This document shows positions 42,929 through 53,546 of a DNA stretch of 53,597 nucleotides, piece after piece. Each line of letters opens with the position of its first letter. The first letter of the stretch is position 1. Made by a program: the position numbers and the translations under genes. The notes below the pieces were generated by a model that saw nothing but the letters and a program-made list of their open reading frames with translations, made no database searches and was not told the DNA's origin. Source of the stretch: Candidatus Endomicrobium neocapritermitis (GTDB taxonomy: Bacteria; Elusimicrobiota; Endomicrobiia; Endomicrobiales; Endomicrobiaceae); assembly GCA_009778325.1 (NCBI GenBank), contig WRJZ01000038.1:1-53597 (forward strand), given 5' to 3'.

Positions 42929-43948
42929 ATGCAAATACCTCCGCCTTATAAAGTTATTCATTGCGCGCCGCAAAAACCGTTTCTTAAAAACATAACCTTG
43001 TATAAATTAAGACCGGACAGATTCTTACGCAGCATACGCTACCGCCTGCAAAACATTGTTTTTGATAAGCAGAAAAATGTAAGTTTCGGCGAAGAATATC
43101 CCGATAAAACTTTTTATGTAATAAGAGAGAAAGTCGGAACAATTGACGGATTAGGCACTATTATGTGCAATGTTTCGGAACATATTGCTTACGCTAAAGA
43201 AAAAGGATATATTCCGGTAATTGAAGATAAAAAAATAGACAATTCGTGGGAAATCAAATACAGCCAATATTTCGAACAGCCTGAAGGATATGGAACAAAA
43301 GACATTTCCAAGGCTAAAAATGTAATATTATCGAAAAGAATGACTCCTTCCCGGGAATTTTCACTGCTCCCAGATATTTGCATAGCGCAAAATAAAGAAA
43401 GACTTGAATATTTTCGCGGAATTTTTAAACGTTATATTCATTTTAATAAAGAGACCGAGAATTATTTAAATGCTGATTTTAACAGGATTGTTTCCGGTAA
43501 AAAAAATATTTTAGGATGCCTTGTCAGAGGCACGGATTACACAATCAATAAGCCTTCCGGACACCATATACAGCCTGAAATAGAAGATGCGGCGGATAAA
43601 GCGGATAAAGTTATGCAAAGTTATAATTGTTCGTTCATATATCTTGCCACGGAAAGCGAAAAGGTTTACGAGCTGTTCAAACGCCGTTTTAATTCAAAAC
43701 TTCTTGTCAACGGACAGAAAAGATATTCGGCCGGAGATACCGGTAAAAAATTCAGGTTTATTTCCGAAATATCATCCAGAAGGGTCAACGACAGATATTT
43801 GACTAATCTTGAGTATATGTCGTCAATAAATATTCTGTCAAAATGCGACTGCTTTGTCGGCGGGCTTACTAACGGAACTGCCGGAGCATATTTAATGAGC
43901 TGCGGATTTAAATACGACTATGTTTTTGATTTAGGCGTTTATCAATGA
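42929..43948 (+). CDS. Putative fucosyltransferase-like glycosyltransferase
   Basis: It has 339 aa. There is no signal peptide. The central LGCLVRGTDYTINKPSGHHIQP resembles the GDP-fucose-binding Arg motif of the GT11/GT23/O-FucT superfamily. IYLATESEKVYELFKRRF and CFVGGLTNGTAGAYLM match the following donor-site segments. The first 60 residues are basic. The exact family is uncertain, and a GT with another donor is possible. Its 3' end overlaps the convergent methyltransferase gene by 18 nt, with no terminator between. Confidence 0.55.
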   Translation: MQIPPPYKVIHCAPQKPFLKNITLYKLRPDRFLRSIRYRLQNIVFDKQKNVSFGEEYPDKTFYVIREKVGTIDGLGTIMCNVSEHIAYAKEKGYIPVIEDKKIDNSWEIKYSQYFEQPEGYGTKDISKAKNVILSKRMTPSREFSLLPDICIAQNKERLEYFRGIFKRYIHFNKETENYLNADFNRIVSGKKNILGCLVRGTDYTINKPSGHHIQPEIEDAADKADKVMQSYNCSFIYLATESEKVYELFKRRFNSKLLVNGQKRYSAGDTGKKFRFISEISSRRVNDRYLTNLEYMSSINILSKCDCFVGGLTNGTAGAYLMSCGFKYDYVFDLGVYQ

Positions 43949-44713
43949 TCCGTTCGACACCATATTTGACGTTTCGTCATTGTTTCCTTTATGAATAAAA
44001 ACCAGATTATGATAAAAATGTATTGATATTATTTTTTTATCAAAATATGTTTTGTTGTAATCCGGCAGCAAAAATTCCGCATGGTTTAGACAATCCGTTA
44101 AACTTTTAAGAAAATTCATTGAGGTATTCGGATTGTTCAGATTTTTACTGTCGCCCCCGCAGTCTGGGAAATATGAGGTTTGTAAATCTTCTATCGCATA
44201 TACTCCGCCGTCTTTTAACTTTGGGAACAGTAATTTAAAACTTGTAATAACATGTTCGTTTATATGACTTCCGTCATCTATAATAATGTCAAATTCTCCT
44301 GTTTCTTTTGTTACTTCGTCAAGAAAATCTTTATCGACCTGGCTTCCTTGAAATATTTTAATGCTACGTTCCTGTAATGCGGATTTATCGTAAATATCAA
44401 TAGCAAAAATTTCCCCTAAAGGAAAATATTTTTTCCACATTCTTAAGGAATGCCCTCCGATATTCGGATCTTCATAACCTCCTACGCCAATCTCCAATAA
44501 TTTGATTTTTTTTCGTCTGAATTTTTTAAAATGCGTCATATAATGCTGGGTATAACAATGCGAGCCTATTTTACCGGTTCCGCATAATTGCGCCAATTTA
44601 TTGAGATTGCCGCTGAAAAATACGGATAAAATATTTGTTGCAAATATTCTCAACTTCATTCTTTGATATGCGGATAAGCGTTTCTTTAAATAATTTTTAA
44701 TAAAATTCGTCAT
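43931..44713 (-). CDS. Class I SAM-dependent methyltransferase (glycan cluster)
   Basis: The start at 44713 (MTNFIKN) has AGGG seven to eight bases upstream; an ATG at 44719 is too close to it. It has 260 aa. Motif I is LLEIGVGGYEDPNIGGHS, then FAIDIYDKS, FDIIIDDGSHINEHV and GGVYAIEDLQTSYFPDCGG. This pattern is found in sugar O-methyltransferases of antibiotic and surface polysaccharide clusters. It is last in the - strand glycan operon. Its leader and first codons are duplicated at 45750-45813. Confidence 0.82.
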   Translation of the reverse strand: MTNFIKNYLKKRLSAYQRMKLRIFATNILSVFFSGNLNKLAQLCGTGKIGSHCYTQHYMTHFKKFRRKKIKLLEIGVGGYEDPNIGGHSLRMWKKYFPLGEIFAIDIYDKSALQERSIKIFQGSQVDKDFLDEVTKETGEFDIIIDDGSHINEHVITSFKLLFPKLKDGGVYAIEDLQTSYFPDCGGDSKNLNNPNTSMNFLKSLTDCLNHAEFLLPDYNKTYFDKKIISIHFYHNLVFIHKGNNDETSNMVSNGSLINA

Positions 44714-44746
44714 ATACATTTCCCTTTTTTAAATTATTTATATTTA
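44683..44746. repeat. Duplicated leader, copy A
   Basis: A 64-bp segment covering the methyltransferase ribosome binding site and first ten codons is almost identical to 45750-45813, with only a handful of differences. It suggests a recent local duplication or cassette exchange. Confidence 0.85.
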
Positions 44747-44820
44747 GATTTAATATTTTGAATTTTTAATAAGCTTTCTACTCCAGAAAGAGGTACTGGT
44801 TTATCAATAAGATATTAATT

Positions 44821-45740
44821 TTAATAGTTTTTAGCGCGTATTAGCCCTCGTCTGTAATATGGTTTTTTTAAATTTTTATCGTAAGAAAATATCATATACC
44901 CCTTCGAGAATTCGGCTGAAAAACCGTTTGAAATAAGAATTTCCTCAAGCTGTTTTGCATCATTTTCTTTATGATAGCTGCATAGCAATAGCCTTAGATC
45001 TTCTTTTCTTTTCAATATTTCTCCGGCTCCTGAAATCATTTCTATTTCGGCGCCGTCAATATCCGCTTTTATGAAATTTATGGATTTATTTTGAAAAAAA
45101 TCATCTAATTTAACTTCATCTCCTTTCGTTCTATCCGATACGAATTTATTGACTATGATAATTTTTTCTTTCCACGGTTCAAATGTTTTTTGTAAAGCTT
45201 GTATCCAAGGCTTTTCACATTCAAATAGATAAGCAATTTTAGCTTTTTCTATATTTTCTAAAGCCCACATTCCTTCGGCTGTTCCTATATCAGCGATAAT
45301 ATCTCCAGACTTGACTGTATAATCAGAAGTTTCGTATCTGTGTGGAGAATATTCGTCTTGTTCCGTAATTAAACCATTATATACACAGGCGATTTGTTCT
45401 TTATTCAAATTTTTTGGAAAATATAATTTTTTATTTTTGTGATAAACATAATGCATATAGCACGATTGATCGAAATTAACACTTATATTAGAAGAATTGT
45501 ATTTTTTTATCCATTCATACGGGAATGCTGAAAAATCATTTTTTTTGAAAAAATTTATTATTTCAATAATTTCCGTCGAGGGGGGGGGGTGGTTGATTCT
45601 TTATCTAACTGCAAAAAATATTGCAATATTTGTTCTTGCAGTTTTATTTGCTGTCTCCGGAGTATGCTTCTGTAAAATTTGAAAATAAATTCAGGCAGAA
45701 TTATCTTAATAAAGTTTTTAATTGTTCTTTTTGTTGGCAT
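44821..45740 (-). CDS. FkbM-type methyltransferase interrupted by a C10 tract (probable phase-variable, OFF)
   Basis: Two - strand frames make one gene. The first (45740 to 45558) starts MPTKRTIKNFIKI and runs 60 codons to a stop just past a tract of 10 C. The second (to 44821) carries the FkbM methyltransferase domain: ADIGTAEGMWALEN, LFECEKPW, NFIKADIDGAEIEMISGAG. With 11 or 8 C the frame reads straight through (from PPPSTEIIEIINFF into CYMHYVYHKNKK) with no stop, giving 306 aa at C11. Without the shift, translation could restart only at an ATG without a good ribosome binding site (45456). FkbM enzymes O-methylate sugars. Length-variable poly-C or poly-G tracts switch such genes in Campylobacter. 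A sequencing error in the tract is the main alternative. Confidence 0.8.
45580..45589. repeat. Homopolymer tract G10 (C10 on the coding strand)
   Basis: Ten consecutive G on the + strand lie in an otherwise AT-rich coding region, about 150 bp into the FkbM gene. It is the longest G or C run I noticed in the window. At length 10 the downstream frame is closed; at 11 or 8 it is open. Confidence 0.95.
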
Positions 45741-45749
45741 AACAGCCTC

Positions 45750-45813
45750 TCTTTAAATAATTTTTAATAAAATTCGTCATATGCATTTTCCTTTTTTAAA
45801 TTATTTGCATTTA
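45750..45813. repeat. Duplicated leader, copy B, with truncated methyltransferase start
   Basis: It is nearly identical to 44683-44746. On the - strand it still encodes MTNFIKNYLK, the first ten residues of the methyltransferase, but the frame stops ten codons later inside the FkbM gene's 5' end. It also carries the last codons of the neighbouring GT gene. Confidence 0.85.
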
Positions 45814-46739
45814 TTTTCTTGTTGTTCGGTCGCGCTGTAACCCCAAGTTTGTTTTTCGAGATATATTTTAACATTTTTTGTACAGTTTAAATAGTGTTTG
45901 CAGTGATGATCTCCTATAATCAAATTATCGGAAGAAGAATTTCTGAAAGTTTCGCTTTTATCCCACTCGTGCGTTTTATATAATTTTGAGTTTGCTCCGA
46001 TAACGCCGATGTCAAATCCCCGGTTTAGTATAAATCTTGTAAGGCTGTTGTGTCCGCTTTCTATTTTACACGATTCATATTTGTTGCGCGGAAATCCATA
46101 CTTATCGATATACTCTATGTATAATTGTCTGTCTATTAAGAAATTATTGGTGCGAATATGAAAATTAGGAAAAAAACAAGGTCTGAATATGGCGTCTTTA
46201 ATTCTTGAAGCTTTTATTCTTAAGTTCACAGTTTCTTTGATTAACTGCAGTTCCGGCGCATTTTGTTTAGGATAGCGTTTGAATATTTTGTTAAAAATTT
46301 TCAAAAATATATTCGGAAATATGTTTTCCCACGAGCCTGCTGATCCGATAAGCTTGTAACTTTCATTGTTTATTGCGGCTTGCGCAAAAAAATTAAGCCA
46401 GCCGTTTTTCAGGATAATATTTCTTGAATTTATACAGAATATGTATTTGGACTTGCATTGCTTAGCCGCTCTGTAAAAAGCCGCGAATTCCATTCCGTCA
46501 TCGGGTAACTCAATGGTTTTTGCGTTATTTTCTTTGGCAAGCTCAGTCAATTCTTTGTAGGCGGTCGGATTATGCTCATAACTTTTTGCGGCTATGAATA
46601 AATTGTGATTAAATCCGGCATTGTGTTTTTTATAACTGTCAAAAAATATTTTGGCATAAACGTTATATTCAGGTTTGCCGTATGCCAAATATATGACGTC
46701 GATAAAATCAAGATGGTTTGAGTTTTTTGTATCGTTCAT
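45801..46739 (-). CDS. Glycosyltransferase, GT-A like
   Basis: The ATG at 46739 is taken; a TTG at 46748 is possible. It has 312 aa. FIDVIYLAYGKPEYNVYAKIFFDSYKKH, HNLFIAAKSYEHN and YIFCINSRNIILKNGWLNFFAQA, with a D/N-x-R-type site in place of DXD, resemble family 2 or rhamnosyl-type transferases. The C-terminal half (NFHIRTNNFLIDRQLYIEY, ESGHNSLTRFILNRGFDIGVIG) fits acceptor-side elements seen in such proteins. Its start lies within the preceding GT2 gene (32-nt overlap), so they are coupled. The donor is unknown. Confidence 0.65.
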   Translation of the reverse strand: MNDTKNSNHLDFIDVIYLAYGKPEYNVYAKIFFDSYKKHNAGFNHNLFIAAKSYEHNPTAYKELTELAKENNAKTIELPDDGMEFAAFYRAAKQCKSKYIFCINSRNIILKNGWLNFFAQAAINNESYKLIGSAGSWENIFPNIFLKIFNKIFKRYPKQNAPELQLIKETVNLRIKASRIKDAIFRPCFFPNFHIRTNNFLIDRQLYIEYIDKYGFPRNKYESCKIESGHNSLTRFILNRGFDIGVIGANSKLYKTHEWDKSETFRNSSSDNLIIGDHHCKHYLNCTKNVKIYLEKQTWGYSATEQQENKCK

Positions 46740-47628
46740 ATTCTTCAATAAGTATCCGTTTTCTGTTTTTGCACCGATTACTTAAAAATCCCAGGCTTAA
46801 AAAATTTATGAGTGAAAAAAATCTTAATCTTTCTTCATAATGTTTTTGCGGCGCATTTTTTCCGTATTCTTTTTCAAATAGAATAAATTTACTGTATGTC
46901 ATAAGCCGTAATCTTTTTTCTTTTTTTTGTATGCCGCAGTCAAATGAACCGCCTTCCAGATGACGTACCTTTGCCTCGGGAACTACATAGAAATCATAAC
47001 CGTTGCTAACCATTCTAAACGACAGCTCTTCATCTTCGCAGTATAGAAAAAAATCTTCGTCAAAATATCCGGCATTTTCAACTGCGTCTTTTCTCATTAA
47101 AATGGCGCAAAAACTTGACCATTGGGCCTTTGACGGTTTTTTTGAGAATACGTGATGCAGAAATTTTAATTTATGATATATATGATGAAAAACAAGATTA
47201 TATAAAGCCGAAAAATTGTTTTTAAGAAAGATGCCTTTTGAATGCGTAAATTTTCCGTTAATATCGTAAATGTTAGGCGAGCATGCCCCGCACTTTGGGT
47301 TTGTTTCGATATAATCGAATAAAATCTTCATAACATTGTTTAATAACAGAGCATCGGTGTTTAATAAAAAAACATACTTCCCTGACGCTTGTTTTATTCC
47401 CATGTTATTTCCATGCCCGTAACCTAAATTTTCGGATTTTAATATAGTTATTTTGTCCCGGAAGAGTTTTTGAAATTCTTCAACAGAGCCGTCTGTAGAA
47501 TTATTGTCAACGACAATAATTTCAAAACTTATATTTTTTGTTTGTTCAAATACGGAGTTTATTGCGTTTACAGTTAAATTTTTTGTGTTATAGTTGACTA
47601 ATATGACGCTTATATCTATGGAATCCAT
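46708..47628 (-). CDS. Glycosyltransferase family 2 (rhamnosyltransferase-like)
   Basis: It has 306 aa. VILVNYNTKNLT, IVVDNNSTDGSVEEF, NLGYGHGNNMGIKQASGKYVFLLNTDA (a DXD-like NTDA) and DEDFFLYCEDEELSFRM are classic for the WbbL-like branch of GT2. A short amphipathic C-terminus may attach to the membrane. Donor probably dTDP-rhamnose or a related deoxysugar, given the rmlC-like gene upstream (inference). Confidence 0.9.
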   Translation of the reverse strand: MDSIDISVILVNYNTKNLTVNAINSVFEQTKNISFEIIVVDNNSTDGSVEEFQKLFRDKITILKSENLGYGHGNNMGIKQASGKYVFLLNTDALLLNNVMKILFDYIETNPKCGACSPNIYDINGKFTHSKGIFLKNNFSALYNLVFHHIYHKLKFLHHVFSKKPSKAQWSSFCAILMRKDAVENAGYFDEDFFLYCEDEELSFRMVSNGYDFYVVPEAKVRHLEGGSFDCGIQKKEKRLRLMTYSKFILFEKEYGKNAPQKHYEERLRFFSLINFLSLGFLSNRCKNRKRILIEEYERYKKLKPS

Positions 47629-47662: not shown

Positions 47663-48793
47663 CTATTTTAACAATTTTATGCTTGCATTGACAATATTAG
47701 ATATTGAAACGGACTGTAAACAAAAAGGTTCTTTATAAGCGCAATCCTTTCCTTCAAATACGCGGCCGTAGAGGCATGGCGAACACTCTGTTTTAGAGTA
47801 AATAGATACATTGTTCGGAGACATCGGCATTGCGTAATTCGGAGAAACCTTGCCGAAAATGGTTATGGAATTTATCCTCTGGGTTGCCGCAATGTGGGCG
47901 ATTCCCGTATCGACGGATATAAGCAAATCCATAGATCCCAGCAGTGATTTTAATTCCAAAAGAGAGGTTTTTCCGGATAAGTTCTTTATTTCTATATCTT
48001 TATCTTTCATCAATAATTTAGAGATTAAATTATCGCCGTATTCTGTTTGTTCTTTTCCTCCGACTATAAAGAAAGCGGCGGGCAGCGTTTTGGATATTTG
48101 AGCAATAATGCTTTCCGAATGCCGCGGGGGCAATATGAAATTTGAACCTTTAGCTCCTTGAAAACACAAGGCTATTTTTTTTGATTTGGACGTTTCGATA
48201 AGAGAATTTATCTTATCCGTCATGCTTGACGGCGTAATGACAGGCAAACCAATGTCCGTTATATTAAAAAAAGAACGGACTAAGGTTTGGTATATTTCGG
48301 AACAATGGATATTGTCTGCGTCTTGCGGTGTATCTATTTCTATGAGACGCCGTTTATTTATATATTTGTTTAAAATAATGCTTTCTATGCTTCTGTTATT
48401 GCAGCCGCAGCATTCATATTTAGGGAAAATAAATTTTTTCACGTTAAAAAATAAAGCTGCTTTAGTCAGAAAAGGTTCAGGCGAGAAAAGAAAACAGAAA
48501 TCCGCTTTTTTAAATAAAAAATAAAAAGATGTTTTTAAAATGAAAAAAACTTTATAGAAATAACGGACAAGTTTTTTATAAGATCCCAAAAGAGACGAAT
48601 TATAATATAAGTGATTGTCAAAAATGGGGTTGTTATTTATAAAATCCGATAAACTTTTCGGGGCAATAATTGTGATTTTTGATGCCGGATTTCTCTTTTT
48701 TATGATAGCTACGGCGGAAGTCGTCCATATAAAATCGCCTATGTGCGACCTTGCAAGTATTAAGAAATGTTTGTCATCGCTTTGTTTTTTCAT
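47663..48793 (-). CDS. Glycosyltransferase family 9 (heptosyltransferase-like)
   Basis: It has 376 aa. FLILARSHIGDFIWTTSAVAIIKKRNP at the N-terminus and IALCFQGAKGSN, FIVGGKEQTEYG, LISVDTGIAHIAATQ and the C-terminal CSPCLYGRVFEGKDC fit GT9. Unlike the + strand GT9 at 41298, it lacks an N-terminal Cys block. It follows the FkbM stop with a 3-nt gap, so it is in the same operon. Confidence 0.88.
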   Translation of the reverse strand: MKKQSDDKHFLILARSHIGDFIWTTSAVAIIKKRNPASKITIIAPKSLSDFINNNPIFDNHLYYNSSLLGSYKKLVRYFYKVFFILKTSFYFLFKKADFCFLFSPEPFLTKAALFFNVKKFIFPKYECCGCNNRSIESIILNKYINKRRLIEIDTPQDADNIHCSEIYQTLVRSFFNITDIGLPVITPSSMTDKINSLIETSKSKKIALCFQGAKGSNFILPPRHSESIIAQISKTLPAAFFIVGGKEQTEYGDNLISKLLMKDKDIEIKNLSGKTSLLELKSLLGSMDLLISVDTGIAHIAATQRINSITIFGKVSPNYAMPMSPNNVSIYSKTECSPCLYGRVFEGKDCAYKEPFCLQSVSISNIVNASIKLLK

Positions 48794-48796
48794 TTT

Positions 48797-49684
48797 TTAT
48801 TTTATTATATGGAATCGGACGTCATAGTCGGCATTTAATTTACGAAGCAAACGCGAGCAGCGTAATTTTAAAACATAAGGTATGCTGTACTTTGTACGAT
48901 AAGGCAATACTGTATTTATGCGAAAATTATACGGCAATAAATGCCATATGCTTTTTAATGCGGAAATTAAAATTTTAATAACAGTGCCGTTGATATGAGA
49001 GATAGAAGGAATATTTGAATTTGACGCAATATTGAATTTTTTTGAGATTTTGCAGTATGATTCGTTTTGTTTATCTGCGTAATATCTGTTTGAGCGGTAT
49101 GAAAATAATAAAACGTAATTGTTGTTTGCCAAAATATCTTCCCATAAATTATACGACGGTTTCTGTTCTATAGGATCTATAGATTCTATGCAGAAAACTT
49201 GCGGACGGTATTTTGTAAAATCAAGGCCTTCTAAAACGGAGCGTTCAAAGCCTTCAACGTCAATTTTACAAAAATTTATTTCTGTATTTTCGGTTATGCA
49301 TTCATCTAAAATATCCGAAAGCCTTTCAACCGGAACAACTTCTTTTTTGCATGTTTTCTTGTCTTTATTTTTGTCAATTACGTCTTGCGCGCAGGTCGTC
49401 AATTCGCCGCTAACATAAAATTCCAGGTTATCTTTTTTATTTGACACTCCGATATTTAAATTTATATCTCTCGGTCTGTCATTTAGCAATAAGTCGAATT
49501 CTTCTTTTAAAGGCTCTATGTTTATCCCGCGCCAGCCGCTATCATAAAAATGTTTTGTAACGTTTTCCCTTATGGGATTATTTGCTCCCACATCGATATA
49601 AAATCCTTTTCCGATGTCGGACAAAATGACGGATAAAATTATATCTTCGAAATTATTCGGGCAATAGCTTATAAATTGCTTCAT
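48797..49684 (-). CDS. FkbM-family methyltransferase
   Basis: It has 295 aa. GFYIDVGANNPIRENVTKHFYDSGWRGINIEPLKEEFD is the SAM-binding start, with FCKIDVEGFERSVLEGLDF later. Both are typical of FkbM enzymes acting on surface sugars. It starts in an ATGA overlap with the preceding FkbM gene, with GAGGA upstream. The C-terminal 80 residues are basic and variable and could bind the membrane or acceptor. Confidence 0.9.
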   Translation of the reverse strand: MKQFISYCPNNFEDIILSVILSDIGKGFYIDVGANNPIRENVTKHFYDSGWRGINIEPLKEEFDLLLNDRPRDINLNIGVSNKKDNLEFYVSGELTTCAQDVIDKNKDKKTCKKEVVPVERLSDILDECITENTEINFCKIDVEGFERSVLEGLDFTKYRPQVFCIESIDPIEQKPSYNLWEDILANNNYVLLFSYRSNRYYADKQNESYCKISKKFNIASNSNIPSISHINGTVIKILISALKSIWHLLPYNFRINTVLPYRTKYSIPYVLKLRCSRLLRKLNADYDVRFHIIK

Positions 49685-50517
49685 ATATCCTCATTTATAT
49701 CAACGTCTATGTTTATTATATATTGTCCGGCATATTCAAGCAATTTATGCGGATTAGAATTCGGAATATGTTCGTTTGCATGAAACTCCCCGCGCAAGTG
49801 TTTAATTCTTGATAAAATACTCACAGGAGCATTATATAAAATTTCATATTCGGCGCCTTCGCAATCCATTTTCAAAAGTTTGCAGTCTTTGATATTGTTT
49901 TCTAAAAAAATTTGTTCCAAAGTCAGGCTTTCGCTTATATTGGATTTTTTGTTTGTCATATTGGGAATTTCGAAAATATTAGACCCTCCGCTATTCTCCC
50001 GCATAAATGTCAAATTTACATTCCTTCCGTCTTTTGTAACGGCTTTATTTTCCAAATGTATTATACCGTCGGATATTTTGTTTAAGAGGATATTGGATTT
50101 AAAATTATCAAAGTTCTCTTTAACCGGCTCAAAAGCATAAATTTTTAAGAAAGGATATTTTTTTGTGAGAAATATTGAAACCATTCCTATATTGCCGCCT
50201 ATATCTACAACTATATCTCCAGGCTTAAAATCAAGATTATCAAACTTATAACTTATATTGTTGTTTAATTCTTCCGCAATATTTTTTGCGGAAAACGAAG
50301 GAAAAGTATCATAGAAATGAAATTGAATGCCTTGAAGTTTAAAACTGTGTAAAGTTCTTTTTATATTGAATAATCTTCCTAATGATAATCTTATAAGATG
50401 TTTAATATAATTTTCAAACTTAATTATTTTCAAAATCGCTTGCTCTTTTTTTGAGCCTTTTTTAACTGTAAATCTCAATTTCAAGAACCCGAGTTTTCTG
50501 GTTTCCGTATTTTTCAT
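49681..50517 (-). CDS. FkbM-family methyltransferase
   Basis: It has 278 aa, with AGGAG before the ATG. GDIVVDIGGNIGMVSIFLTKKYPFLKIYAFEPVKENFDNF and LLKMDCEGAEYEILYN are the family signatures. It is a third FkbM gene in the cluster, counting the phase-variable one. Its N-terminal 60 residues are basic and differ from those of its neighbours, so the three genes are divergent paralogues. Confidence 0.9.
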   Translation of the reverse strand: MKNTETRKLGFLKLRFTVKKGSKKEQAILKIIKFENYIKHLIRLSLGRLFNIKRTLHSFKLQGIQFHFYDTFPSFSAKNIAEELNNNISYKFDNLDFKPGDIVVDIGGNIGMVSIFLTKKYPFLKIYAFEPVKENFDNFKSNILLNKISDGIIHLENKAVTKDGRNVNLTFMRENSGGSNIFEIPNMTNKKSNISESLTLEQIFLENNIKDCKLLKMDCEGAEYEILYNAPVSILSRIKHLRGEFHANEHIPNSNPHKLLEYAGQYIINIDVDINEDI

Positions 50518-50572: not shown

Positions 50573-51862
50573 CTATTTCAAAACCTTATAAGTTTTTATA
50601 GGCAGAACCCAAAGAGAAGTTAAAACCAGCGATAAAATTAAACCTATTACTATACCTTCGGCTCCGTATATTTTAGCAAAATAATATTGTGAGACTATGT
50701 TTGTTATTATTTGGAAAGGCATAAAATACATGAAAATTCTTAAAACGTTTGCGCTTTGTAAGAAATATGAATAATTGGTGTATAATGTTCTCACGACAGC
50801 ATATACGGTAAATAAAATAATAAATCCGGCGCCGGCTTTTATATTTGAATCCGGCGCTAATATTTTTATGAGAAAATCCGAAAATATAAAAATTGGAACA
50901 GCACATAAAACGACTATAATTATGCCGTAATAAGAGTATCTGCTAATCATTCCTTTTAGAACAGCATAATTTTTTTTGATAAACATTTCTCCTCGTACCG
51001 GCCACGCCGCTGTCAGCAAAGACTCATAAATAAATATGGGAAACAAGAAAAAACGCATAAATATTCCGTATCTGATGATTTCTTCGGCGGATAAAACCTG
51101 GGAAGCTATTATATAATCGGTTTGCGTATAAATAATTCCTAAAATTCCTAAAAGATAAAATTTGGACGCGCGCAGGCAAAGGTTTTTTATATTTGCGAAA
51201 TCAAACTCAAAAATACGGCTAAAGAATTTTTTAAACGTTTTAAAAAATAGAAATAAAATAAATAAAAGCTGCGGTCCGGTAAAAATTAATAAAGCGGTTA
51301 CTATGCTTGCTGACACGTTATAATGTTTGACGATTAAAATCAAAAGTAAAGATATGACAGCCGCTATTGCCGGAAAAATATTGGGAATATATCCTTTATG
51401 TTCTGCAAAATAAACGTTATAAACTATCCCGGCAAGAGCGGTTATCAATGAAATTATTCCGATAATGAAAACTACGGGTTCATCAAGCATTGGGAATTTT
51501 CTGAAAATCATATTTTGCGCCGGGGTTGACAGAAAAAGTATTAAAATAAAAAATAGAATAAAAAGCAGCGATATGCATTGTAAAGCCGAAAGCATGTACT
51601 TATCGTAATTTTCGTTTTTAGCGCGAGACTGCGATATAAAGTTTTGCAAAGAAGTGCCTATGTTAAACTGTGTTAAAAGAAACCATACGGTAAGCGAATA
51701 AGCTATTAGATAAACCGCGTATCTTTCTTCGCCCAAATAAGAAAGAAGCTCCCTGATGCTTACGATACTGACCAGCGAAACGATGACTTTGCTTGTCCAT
51801 GCCGAGCCGGCCACTACCCAGTGCCTTGGAAATGATTTTAAAATGTTTTTAATTTTTTGCAT
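50573..51862 (-). CDS. Polysaccharide flippase (Wzx-like, MOP superfamily)
   Basis: It has 429 aa with about 12 hydrophobic helices. It begins with a basic segment and WVVAGSAWTSKVIVSLVSIVSIRELLSYLGEERYAVYLIAYSL, typical of O-antigen or teichoic-type flippases (PST family). It would move lipid-linked glycan units across the inner membrane. No Wzy polymerase or ligase is recognisable in the window. No clear Shine-Dalgarno sequence. A weak promoter-like element lies upstream. Confidence 0.85.
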   Translation of the reverse strand: MQKIKNILKSFPRHWVVAGSAWTSKVIVSLVSIVSIRELLSYLGEERYAVYLIAYSLTVWFLLTQFNIGTSLQNFISQSRAKNENYDKYMLSALQCISLLFILFFILILFLSTPAQNMIFRKFPMLDEPVVFIIGIISLITALAGIVYNVYFAEHKGYIPNIFPAIAAVISLLLILIVKHYNVSASIVTALLIFTGPQLLFILFLFFKTFKKFFSRIFEFDFANIKNLCLRASKFYLLGILGIIYTQTDYIIASQVLSAEEIIRYGIFMRFFLFPIFIYESLLTAAWPVRGEMFIKKNYAVLKGMISRYSYYGIIIVVLCAVPIFIFSDFLIKILAPDSNIKAGAGFIILFTVYAVVRTLYTNYSYFLQSANVLRIFMYFMPFQIITNIVSQYYFAKIYGAEGIVIGLILSLVLTSLWVLPIKTYKVLK

Positions 51863-51971: not shown

Positions 51972-52886
51972 CTATAACTTTAATATATTGTCAATCGCCC
52001 GATCTAAAGAATATTGTATTTGATACCCGGCTTCCAGCGTTAGCCGTGTATTGTCTCCGACTATAACCGGAGGCTGGGTTGTCGGTTCATTTAAAATTTT
52101 AATTAAGTCTGGCCGGCCGAGTTTGTTTGCTATGGTCATTGCGTAATCCGCAAGTTTTATGCCTTTGCCGGTGCATATGTTTACTGTGCCTTTGACTTCA
52201 CTGTCTAAAAGTTTTACAAAACCGCCTGCGATATCTTTTGAGTATATGTAATCTCTAATCAGGCCGCCGCTATTTATTATTACTTCCTTATTATTTTTTA
52301 TACTTTTTATTATGTGGGCGGTAAGCCTTTTTTCGTTTTCGCCATGTCCGTATGCATAAAAAATTCTGCCCCAGCCGAAACTTATGCCGTTTTGGCCGCA
52401 ATATAATTGCGCAATCTCTCTTAAATAATTTTTGCATTTGGCATATACTGTTTGCGGACGGGCTTCGTCCGTTTCTTTTAAAGGAGGATCTTTAAATGCG
52501 TATTCAAAGCATGTTCCCGAAAAAACAGCCCTCTTCCCGCCGTTTTCGGAGAAATATTTCAGCAGGTTGAGGCCTGCTTTTAAAAAGTCAAAATTTATAT
52601 CGGATGTTAAATAATCTCCGGCAGTCGTCCATGCAAAATTCAGCAGGTATCGGGGTTTTACGTTTTCAAATACCTCTTTTATTTCGTTGATATTAAATAA
52701 ATTGCAGTTTATTTTTTTTACTTCATTTTGACGCTGTTTTGCTTCCCAGATTTCCAACTTTTCAGCTTCTAAGCTGTCAATTGTTAAGGCGTAAACGTCA
52801 AAACCAGCCTGTTGAAGCGGTTCTATAGCTTCTTTGCCTATAAGTCCCGAAGCGCCTGCTAAGATTATTTTTTTAGAGTAATTCAT
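51972..52886 (-). CDS. NAD-dependent epimerase/dehydratase (nucleotide-sugar SDR)
   Basis: The ATG at 52886 lies inside the end of the rmlC-like gene (14-nt overlap); an upstream in-frame start is less likely. It has 304 aa. Rossmann motif GASGLIG, active-site YAKCK (Tyr-x3-Lys), LRDIYSKDIAGGF-type segment (GGLIRDYIYSKD) and a C-terminal substrate domain place it in the extended SDR family. It probably makes an NDP-deoxysugar, perhaps by 4-reduction of the RmlC-type product. Exact product unknown. Confidence 0.85.
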   Translation of the reverse strand: MNYSKKIILAGASGLIGKEAIEPLQQAGFDVYALTIDSLEAEKLEIWEAKQRQNEVKKINCNLFNINEIKEVFENVKPRYLLNFAWTTAGDYLTSDINFDFLKAGLNLLKYFSENGGKRAVFSGTCFEYAFKDPPLKETDEARPQTVYAKCKNYLREIAQLYCGQNGISFGWGRIFYAYGHGENEKRLTAHIIKSIKNNKEVIINSGGLIRDYIYSKDIAGGFVKLLDSEVKGTVNICTGKGIKLADYAMTIANKLGRPDLIKILNEPTTQPPVIVGDNTRLTLEAGYQIQYSLDRAIDNILKL

Positions 52887-53400
52887 AATTCTTATCTCTG
52901 GCATTCATTATTCTGTTTTTACATTCAGGCCATTTAACGCCTATTTTAGGATCGTTCCATCTTATGCCCGAGCAGTATTCAGGCATAAAATACTCTCCTG
53001 CCATATAATATAAAACCGTATTGTCTTCAAGCGTCTGAAAACCATGGGCACATTCGCCGGGGATATACAAAATTTTATTATTGTTTTCCGACAATATAAA
53101 AGACTGCCATTTTAAATAAGTCGGCGAATCTTTTCTTAAATCTACAATAACGTCAAAACAGGAGCCTTTTACACAGGAAACCATTTTGGTTTCCGGATAC
53201 GGATTTTTCTGGCAGTGAAGTCCGCGTAAAACTCCGGATTTGTAATTTTTGGAAATATTGCATTGTTTAATATCAAAAGCTATGCCGTATTTTGACATTT
53301 CTTTTTTACAAAACTGCCTTGCAAAAGAACCTCTTTCGTCGGAGTGTTCTTCCATTTCTATTAAAAAAGCGCCTTTTATTGATAATTCCGTAAATTTCAT
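52873..53400 (-). CDS. rfbC: dTDP-4-dehydrorhamnose 3,5-epimerase-like protein
   Basis: It has 175 aa from the ATG at 53400 (MKFTELS). An upstream ATG at 53430 overlaps the predicted -10 box, so it is not used. RmlC/cupin signatures are DERGSFARQF, RGLHCQKNPYPETKMVSCVKGSCFDVIVDLRKDSPTY, GECAHGFQTLEDNTVLYYMAGEY and GIRWNDPKIGVKWP. The His of RGLHxQ is the catalytic base. RmlA, RmlB and RmlD are not adjacent, so it could instead be a 3- or 5-epimerase for another NDP-sugar. First gene of the - strand operon. Confidence 0.88.
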   Translation of the reverse strand: MKFTELSIKGAFLIEMEEHSDERGSFARQFCKKEMSKYGIAFDIKQCNISKNYKSGVLRGLHCQKNPYPETKMVSCVKGSCFDVIVDLRKDSPTYLKWQSFILSENNNKILYIPGECAHGFQTLEDNTVLYYMAGEYFMPEYCSGIRWNDPKIGVKWPECKNRIMNARDKNYELL

Positions 53401-53426
53401 AAGTAATTGTTTAGGGTGTGTGGACA

Positions 53427-53454
53427 TATATATAATGCGCTTGTGTTTGGTCAA
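53427..53454 (-). promoter_or_regulatory. Promoter of the glycan operon
   Basis: On the - strand, -35 TTGACC (53454-53449), a 16-bp spacer and -10 TATATA (53432-53427). The start of transcription would be about 20 nt before the rfbC ATG. The -35 box lies inside the inverted repeat 53445-53546. Confidence 0.55.
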
Positions 53455-53546
53455 AAAAGGGCCAAATCCTAGGCGCGGGGACGAAGCAATAGCGGTGCCT
53501 ATTGATAGGAGCCGCAACAACGGAGTTGGCTCTTTTTTGACCAAAC
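53445..53546. repeat. Inverted repeat around 60 bp, with TTGACC in each arm
   Basis: The arms 53445-53465 and 53526-53546 are inverse at 20 of 21 positions. The 60-bp centre has a small cctattgatagg hairpin. Each arm carries TTGACC pointing outward; only the left one has a fitting -10. It may be another dispersed palindrome, an operator, or an invertible promoter segment. The last 50 bases of the window show nothing further. Confidence 0.7.

Follow-up and report, generated by a model that had tools for sequence, protein, structure and literature searches.

The FkbM-type gene and its homopolymer tract

The window analysed spans positions 1–53,597 of contig WRJZ01000038.1 of Candidatus Endomicrobium neocapritermitis (Elusimicrobiota, Endomicrobiaceae; assembly GCA_009778325.1). 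Its minus strand carries a putatively phase-variable gene coding an FkbM-type methyltransferase, whose reading frame is interrupted at a run of exactly 10 C. The features that define this gene are the following (aa, amino acids):

44821–45740, minus strand: FkbM-type methyltransferase gene, putatively phase-variable, of ~306 codons when the tract has 8, 11 or 14 C (frame simulation and Pfam PF05050)
45580–45589, minus strand: homopolymer tract, 10 C on the coding strand, inside the variable linker ..KESTT-PPP-STEII..
45558–45740, minus strand: OFF-state frame at 10 C, 60 aa, with a TAA soon after the tract
45746–45754, minus strand: AAAGAGAGG, which resembles a Shine-Dalgarno sequence and lies 5 nt before the ATG at 45740, giving this start a good ribosome-binding site
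44935–45144, minus strand: conserved part of the FkbM domain with the motif IKADIDGAE, entirely downstream of the tract in the alignment of homologues

The initial annotation, made from the sequence without database searches, had the tract, the start at 45740, the stop at 44821 and the stop ~6 codons past the tract at 10 C all correct. It had also proposed that 8 or 11 C would read through into the methyltransferase domain. Simulation of tract lengths from 6 to 15 bears this out: the frame is open (~306 aa) at 8, 11 and 14 only and closed at 6, 7, 9, 10, 12, 13 and 15, the product at 10 C being the 60 aa one. Gain or loss of repeat units at these simulated lengths thus shifts the gene between an intact and a truncated reading. 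No ribosome-binding site is visible at the internal ATG at 45456. With 10 C inside an open reading frame (ORF), the tract lies above the PhasomeIt cut-off, which is a mononucleotide G/C tract of at least 7 inside an ORF.

The domain that follows the tract scores 27.4 bits against PF05050, above the Pfam gathering cut-off of 22.7, and 28.4 bits against NCBIfam TIGR01444, below its curated cut-off of 37.7. The only relative found by profile among solved structures is 2py6, “Methyltransferase FkbM” (E 2e-6). The motifs ADIGTAEG, FECE and IKADIDGAE are kept across the aligned homologues, covering both the S-adenosylmethionine (SAM)-binding and the IKxDxEGaE signatures. The predicted protein is a divergent FkbM member, filed as FkbM-type on its Pfam score.

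The two frames that meet at the tract, joined into one FkbM gene in the initial annotation, do form a single gene because distant homologues cross the junction in one frame. This is the case of genome G031, which encodes the whole protein in this way, and of the Planctomycetaceae metagenome-assembled genome (MAG) L022 (48% identity, residues 7 to 304). A contig scan retrieved two Planctomycetaceae MAGs only. The tract segment is a short gap in the G031 and L022 alignments, so the poly-Pro linker is an insertion at a tolerant spot.

Homopolymer runs in the window and in the source genome

Outside this tract, C/G runs of 7–9 are absent from the 53.6 kb window. Runs of at least 10 appeared in 3 of 300 first-order Markov simulations of the window, and 0.004 are expected under a third-order model. 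The source genome (G000) has 14 C/G runs of at least 9 against 0.9 expected (third-order Markov). Counted from length 7 upwards, the genome has five C/G runs of length 7, three of length 8, nine of length 9, three of length 10 and two of length 13, which departs from the steep decay expected.

Seven of the 14 runs of at least 9 coincide with or adjoin contig ends, a sign that they were difficult to assemble. At the breaks C43|C19 and C14|C26 the contig pairs resemble, by protein continuity, halves of a single gene of a giant protein family (see below); if they are such halves, the 14 runs represent 12 loci. Sequencing through poly-C/G is difficult, and these contig ends lend some weight to an assembly or sequencing error in which the true tract has 11 C (or 8) and the gene was ON in the sampled cells. 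This explanation is nonetheless improbable. The excess consists of the long homopolymers themselves, and the PacBio genome of the isolate Endomicrobium proavitum displays the same pattern, with an FkbM gene whose frame is closed by 10 C (see below). In addition, a tract of 11 C would be equally prone to slippage, so that an error alters the state of the gene and not the mechanism.

Runs of G8–G9 lie shortly before the ATG of three genes of the source genome (G000:C42:21288-21296, hypA; G000:C43:47470-47478; G000:C52:96941-96948). They were rejected as ORF switches since they resemble Shine-Dalgarno sequences, and are possibly G-only Shine-Dalgarno sequences or translation-rate switches. Note that two such G9 runs are included in the count of 14 but are not used as evidence of ORF switching.

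Loss of mismatch repair was also rejected as a cause of the tracts. MutS and MutL genes are intact in the source genome and both are present in the tract-rich relatives, so hypermutability through loss of repair is not the explanation.

Tracts in FkbM genes of the Endomicrobiaceae

An internal C/G run of at least 9 is carried by 16 of the 55 PF05050 genes tabulated in Endomicrobiaceae and by none of 30 loci of the housekeeping methyltransferase MraW (114 kb including flanks; Fisher p = 0.0008), a contrast that is somewhat generous as tract-poor genera contribute ~10 of the 30 controls. Seven of the 16 genes are in frame: G009 (12), G019 (9), G025:C11 (16), G075 (10), G029 (10), G017:C100 (12) and G017:C59 (9), the last a sub-cut-off PF05050 match. 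The other nine are split: the window gene (10), G014 (10), G008 (13), G016 (14 and 15), G025 (12 and 15), G035 (12) and G017 (10). When G025 is left out, 13 tract-bearing FkbM genes stand against ~0.7 expected (Poisson ~1e-12), the latter being rough upper-bound arithmetic from phylum-wide C9 counts that use overlapping windows, include contig-end poly-G (e.g. G004:C24) and give a loose upper bound only. Outside Endomicrobiaceae, FkbM genes have tracts less often (1 of 30 sampled loci and a further case in G127). Within the family, genera g10, g7, g12 and g4 have nearly no C/G runs of at least 9 while other genera have many, and the trait is therefore lineage-specific.

The homologues of the window gene in genera g6, g13 and g14 carry tracts at the same or other positions, with frames that are open (12, 9) or closed (15). 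A decayed G5AG7 occupies in the G017 homologue the position of the C10 tract; in those of G009 and G019 the SAM motif is preceded by 12 and 9 G, and that of G016 has 15 G close to the carboxyl terminus. These differing positions imply that a single gene acquired tracts on more than one occasion.

Length differences among relatives

The initial annotation had named a fixed length among relatives as evidence against switching. Lengths vary instead (9, 10, 12, 13, 14, 15 and 16, at several gene positions, in open and closed frames). Among relatives, 12 stands against 9 G between G009 and G019, and 15 against 16 G within a pair of G025 FkbM genes with identical flanks (104 of 104 bases upstream, 53 downstream). 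In this pair the one-G difference by itself sets the frame: 15 G leads to a stop at codon 25 (OFF) and 16 G reads to codon 257 (ON). Genome G025 has three paralogous FkbM genes with a common 5' half (L156, L157 and L174, with G15, G12 and G16), whose shared 5' ends suggest cassette exchange besides slippage.

The published chromosome of Endomicrobium proavitum Rsa215 (G014; PMC4505116) comes from the same family as the source genome. Its relative of the second FkbM gene of the window (58% identity) is cut by 10 C, after which the next frame encodes the matching carboxyl-terminal tail (37%, E 2e-9). Runs are found in FkbM (10 C), glycosyltransferase family 2 (9) and epimerase (10) genes of this cultured isolate.

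Variation among relatives also bears on programmed ribosomal or transcriptional slippage at the C run, by which some full-length enzyme would be made from a 10 C template with the DNA unchanged. The run is a slippery context and both frames are open around it; however, the runs of related genes vary in position and in length modulo 3, unlike a conserved recoding site, and such recoding is regarded as very improbable.

Other tract-bearing genes

Tracts are found in further Endomicrobiaceae genes coding glycosyltransferases of family 2, epimerases, DegT aminotransferases, sulfatase-fold membrane enzymes, one outer-membrane protein, D12 and N6_N4 DNA methyltransferases and two HsdS proteins. These classes (glycan, outer-membrane, restriction-modification) are the usual list of contingency genes. 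In the genus relative G004 a G9 interrupts the D12 methyltransferase gene, while in Type I HsdS genes G17 (L043:1493-1509) and G14 (L045:1496-1509) fall precisely between one specificity domain and the other, so that the sequence specificity of restriction could switch.

The source genome also codes for a family of 17 giant secreted-looking proteins of ~1,600 to 9,000 aa (G000 contigs C21, C28, C30, C49, C14/C26, C19/C43, C40, C54 and others; e.g. L079:5309-15688 and L081:3801-17675). A run falls within the first 2 kb of six of the 17 genes, where 0.16 would be expected, and these six tracts lie in, or are joinable to, long open frames. The amino-terminal domain is marked by IQDLHxH, EG and GGxH; the amino-terminal 700 aa have no convincing NCBIfam or PDB match, and three whole members have no Pfam name there. 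The family is present in the genus and in G031 and absent in E. proavitum and G009.

The best reading is that the window gene belongs to a wider Endomicrobiaceae repertoire of glycosyltransferases, epimerases, outer-membrane proteins, DNA methyltransferases, HsdS and giant secreted proteins. A stronger statement, for which the balance tips slightly in favour, is that Endomicrobiaceae run a full poly-G/C phasome acting on surface glycans, FkbM methylation, restriction specificity and giant secreted proteins, including in E. proavitum, the only cultured member of the class, and partly decayed in flagellate endosymbionts.

Phase variation as the probable reading of the locus

The locus is read, with a probability of roughly 0.8, as a translational phase-variable (contingency) gene that would switch by slipped-strand mispairing. 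The observations that support this directly are the tract and its frame logic, the homology that unites both frames, the excess of runs, their recurrence in the same gene family and the one-base length difference in a relative. Mispairing at the C10 tract during replication would lengthen or shorten the run. With 8, 11 or 14 C, translation would pass the tolerant Pro-rich linker and yield the full FkbM-type O-methyltransferase, and with 10 C a 60-aa stub devoid of the SAM-binding domain. The predicted substrate of the enzyme is a sugar of a rhamnose-type glycan, presumably surface-located, that the flanking cluster would make. Sister cells would then differ in surface methylation, a difference from which they may benefit.

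Several points weigh against phase variation. The state of the tract at 45580–45589 is known from one assembled sequence. No homologue of the tract-bearing gene is found in the other four genomes of the genus. Many of the tracts of the endosymbiont G026 fall outside long ORFs, often in DNA that is non-coding or decayed. A general mutational tendency to poly-G/C may therefore exist in the family, and selection may act on such a bias. Finally, intact mismatch repair genes would be expected to slow slippage, although switching occurs in Neisseria and Haemophilus with this repair in place.

The G026 tracts and the genus members that have no homologue would equally suit neutral decay, in which a family bias to poly-G/C has made of the gene a fresh pseudogene that is permanently OFF. 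This is held to be unlikely. The downstream frame has no further stop, frameshift or other lesion over 306 codons, and FkbM genes are strongly enriched in tracts over housekeeping genes. Across several genera, tracts were acquired at different places of this gene, and several of these are in frame. The six giant-family tracts fall in or can be joined to long open frames, and MutS and MutL are present.

Relation to known phase-variable systems

Most known cases of phase variation driven by repeats come from a small number of phyla, in host-adapted pathogens and commensals. The initial annotation knew of no case in this phylum, and the literature searched, most subscription papers being outside its reach, gave no report of phase variation in Elusimicrobiota; the words “phase” and “homopolymer” are absent from a 2024 study of Endomicrobia genomes. 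The best reading of the locus is thus a mechanism of known type in a new phylum, with good comparative support, in which switching and sugar methylation are inferred from sequence. If the wider repertoire is real, the same solution arose in a distant lineage, among Elusimicrobiota commensals and protist endosymbionts of insect guts, and selection would most likely be exerted by phages, protists or competing gut bacteria rather than by vertebrate immunity. E. proavitum is culturable, so switching is directly measurable.

FkbM genes with G tracts are already known in bacteria: NTHI0694 of Haemophilus influenzae 86-028NP, of the FkbM family, carries a (G)12 tract in its 5' end (PMC2651432). Like the window gene it codes an FkbM methyltransferase, has a long G/C homopolymer near the 5' end in an AT-rich genome and has a proposed role in O-methylation of a surface glycan. 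It differs in belonging to a pathogen of another phylum, in having G rather than C on the coding strand and in being a single case, whereas many FkbM genes of Endomicrobiaceae have tracts.

The initial annotation had likened the locus to contingency genes in capsule and lipooligosaccharide loci of Campylobacter and Helicobacter, a comparison upheld by the present survey through the classes of tract-bearing genes and a length peak at 9–10. The poly-G/C phasome of Campylobacter, which includes SAM-dependent methyltransferases and lipooligosaccharide/capsule genes, likewise has G/C tracts in ORFs with lengths that peak at 9 (53%) and 10 (26%), in surface-structure genes and at many loci per genome (PMC6321876). 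Switching was demonstrated there, whereas it is inferred for the window gene. Phase-variable Type I HsdS and DNA methyltransferases occur in Neisseria, Helicobacter and Haemophilus, including the restriction-modification systems of H. pylori (PMC4209511). The HsdS (G17, G14) and D12 (G9) tracts of G004 resemble them; they are part of the wider repertoire and distinct from the window gene.

Gene neighbourhood

The FkbM-type gene lies in a series of genes on the same strand:

43931–44719, minus strand: methyltransferase-like gene (Methyltransf_24, slightly below cut-off), next in the operon after the FkbM-type gene
45801–46748, minus strand: upstream gene in the same direction, of no assigned family (no Pfam or NCBIfam match)
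46708–47628, minus strand: glycosyltransferase family 2 (Pfam)
47663–48793, minus strand: glycosyltransferase family 9 (Pfam)
48797–49684, minus strand: second FkbM methyltransferase, without tract (Pfam), whose relative in E. proavitum is interrupted by 10 C
49681–50517, minus strand: third FkbM methyltransferase, without tract (Pfam)
50573–51862, minus strand: polysaccharide flippase-like protein (MatE/Polysacc_synt; Pfam)
51972–52904, minus strand: NAD-dependent sugar epimerase/dehydratase (Pfam)
52873–53544, minus strand: rmlC, dTDP-4-dehydrorhamnose 3,5-epimerase (above the NCBI cut-off)

The same-strand run of rmlC, sugar epimerase, flippase-like protein, glycosyltransferases of families 9 and 2, two further FkbM genes and the tract gene is a surface-polysaccharide cluster by gene content, which would direct synthesis of the putative glycan. 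A stretch of ~55 bp that covers the start of the FkbM-type gene and the sequence before it (45730–45800) recurs near-exactly at the start of the next gene (44690–44765), an arrangement that looks like the copying of a 5' segment inside the operon.
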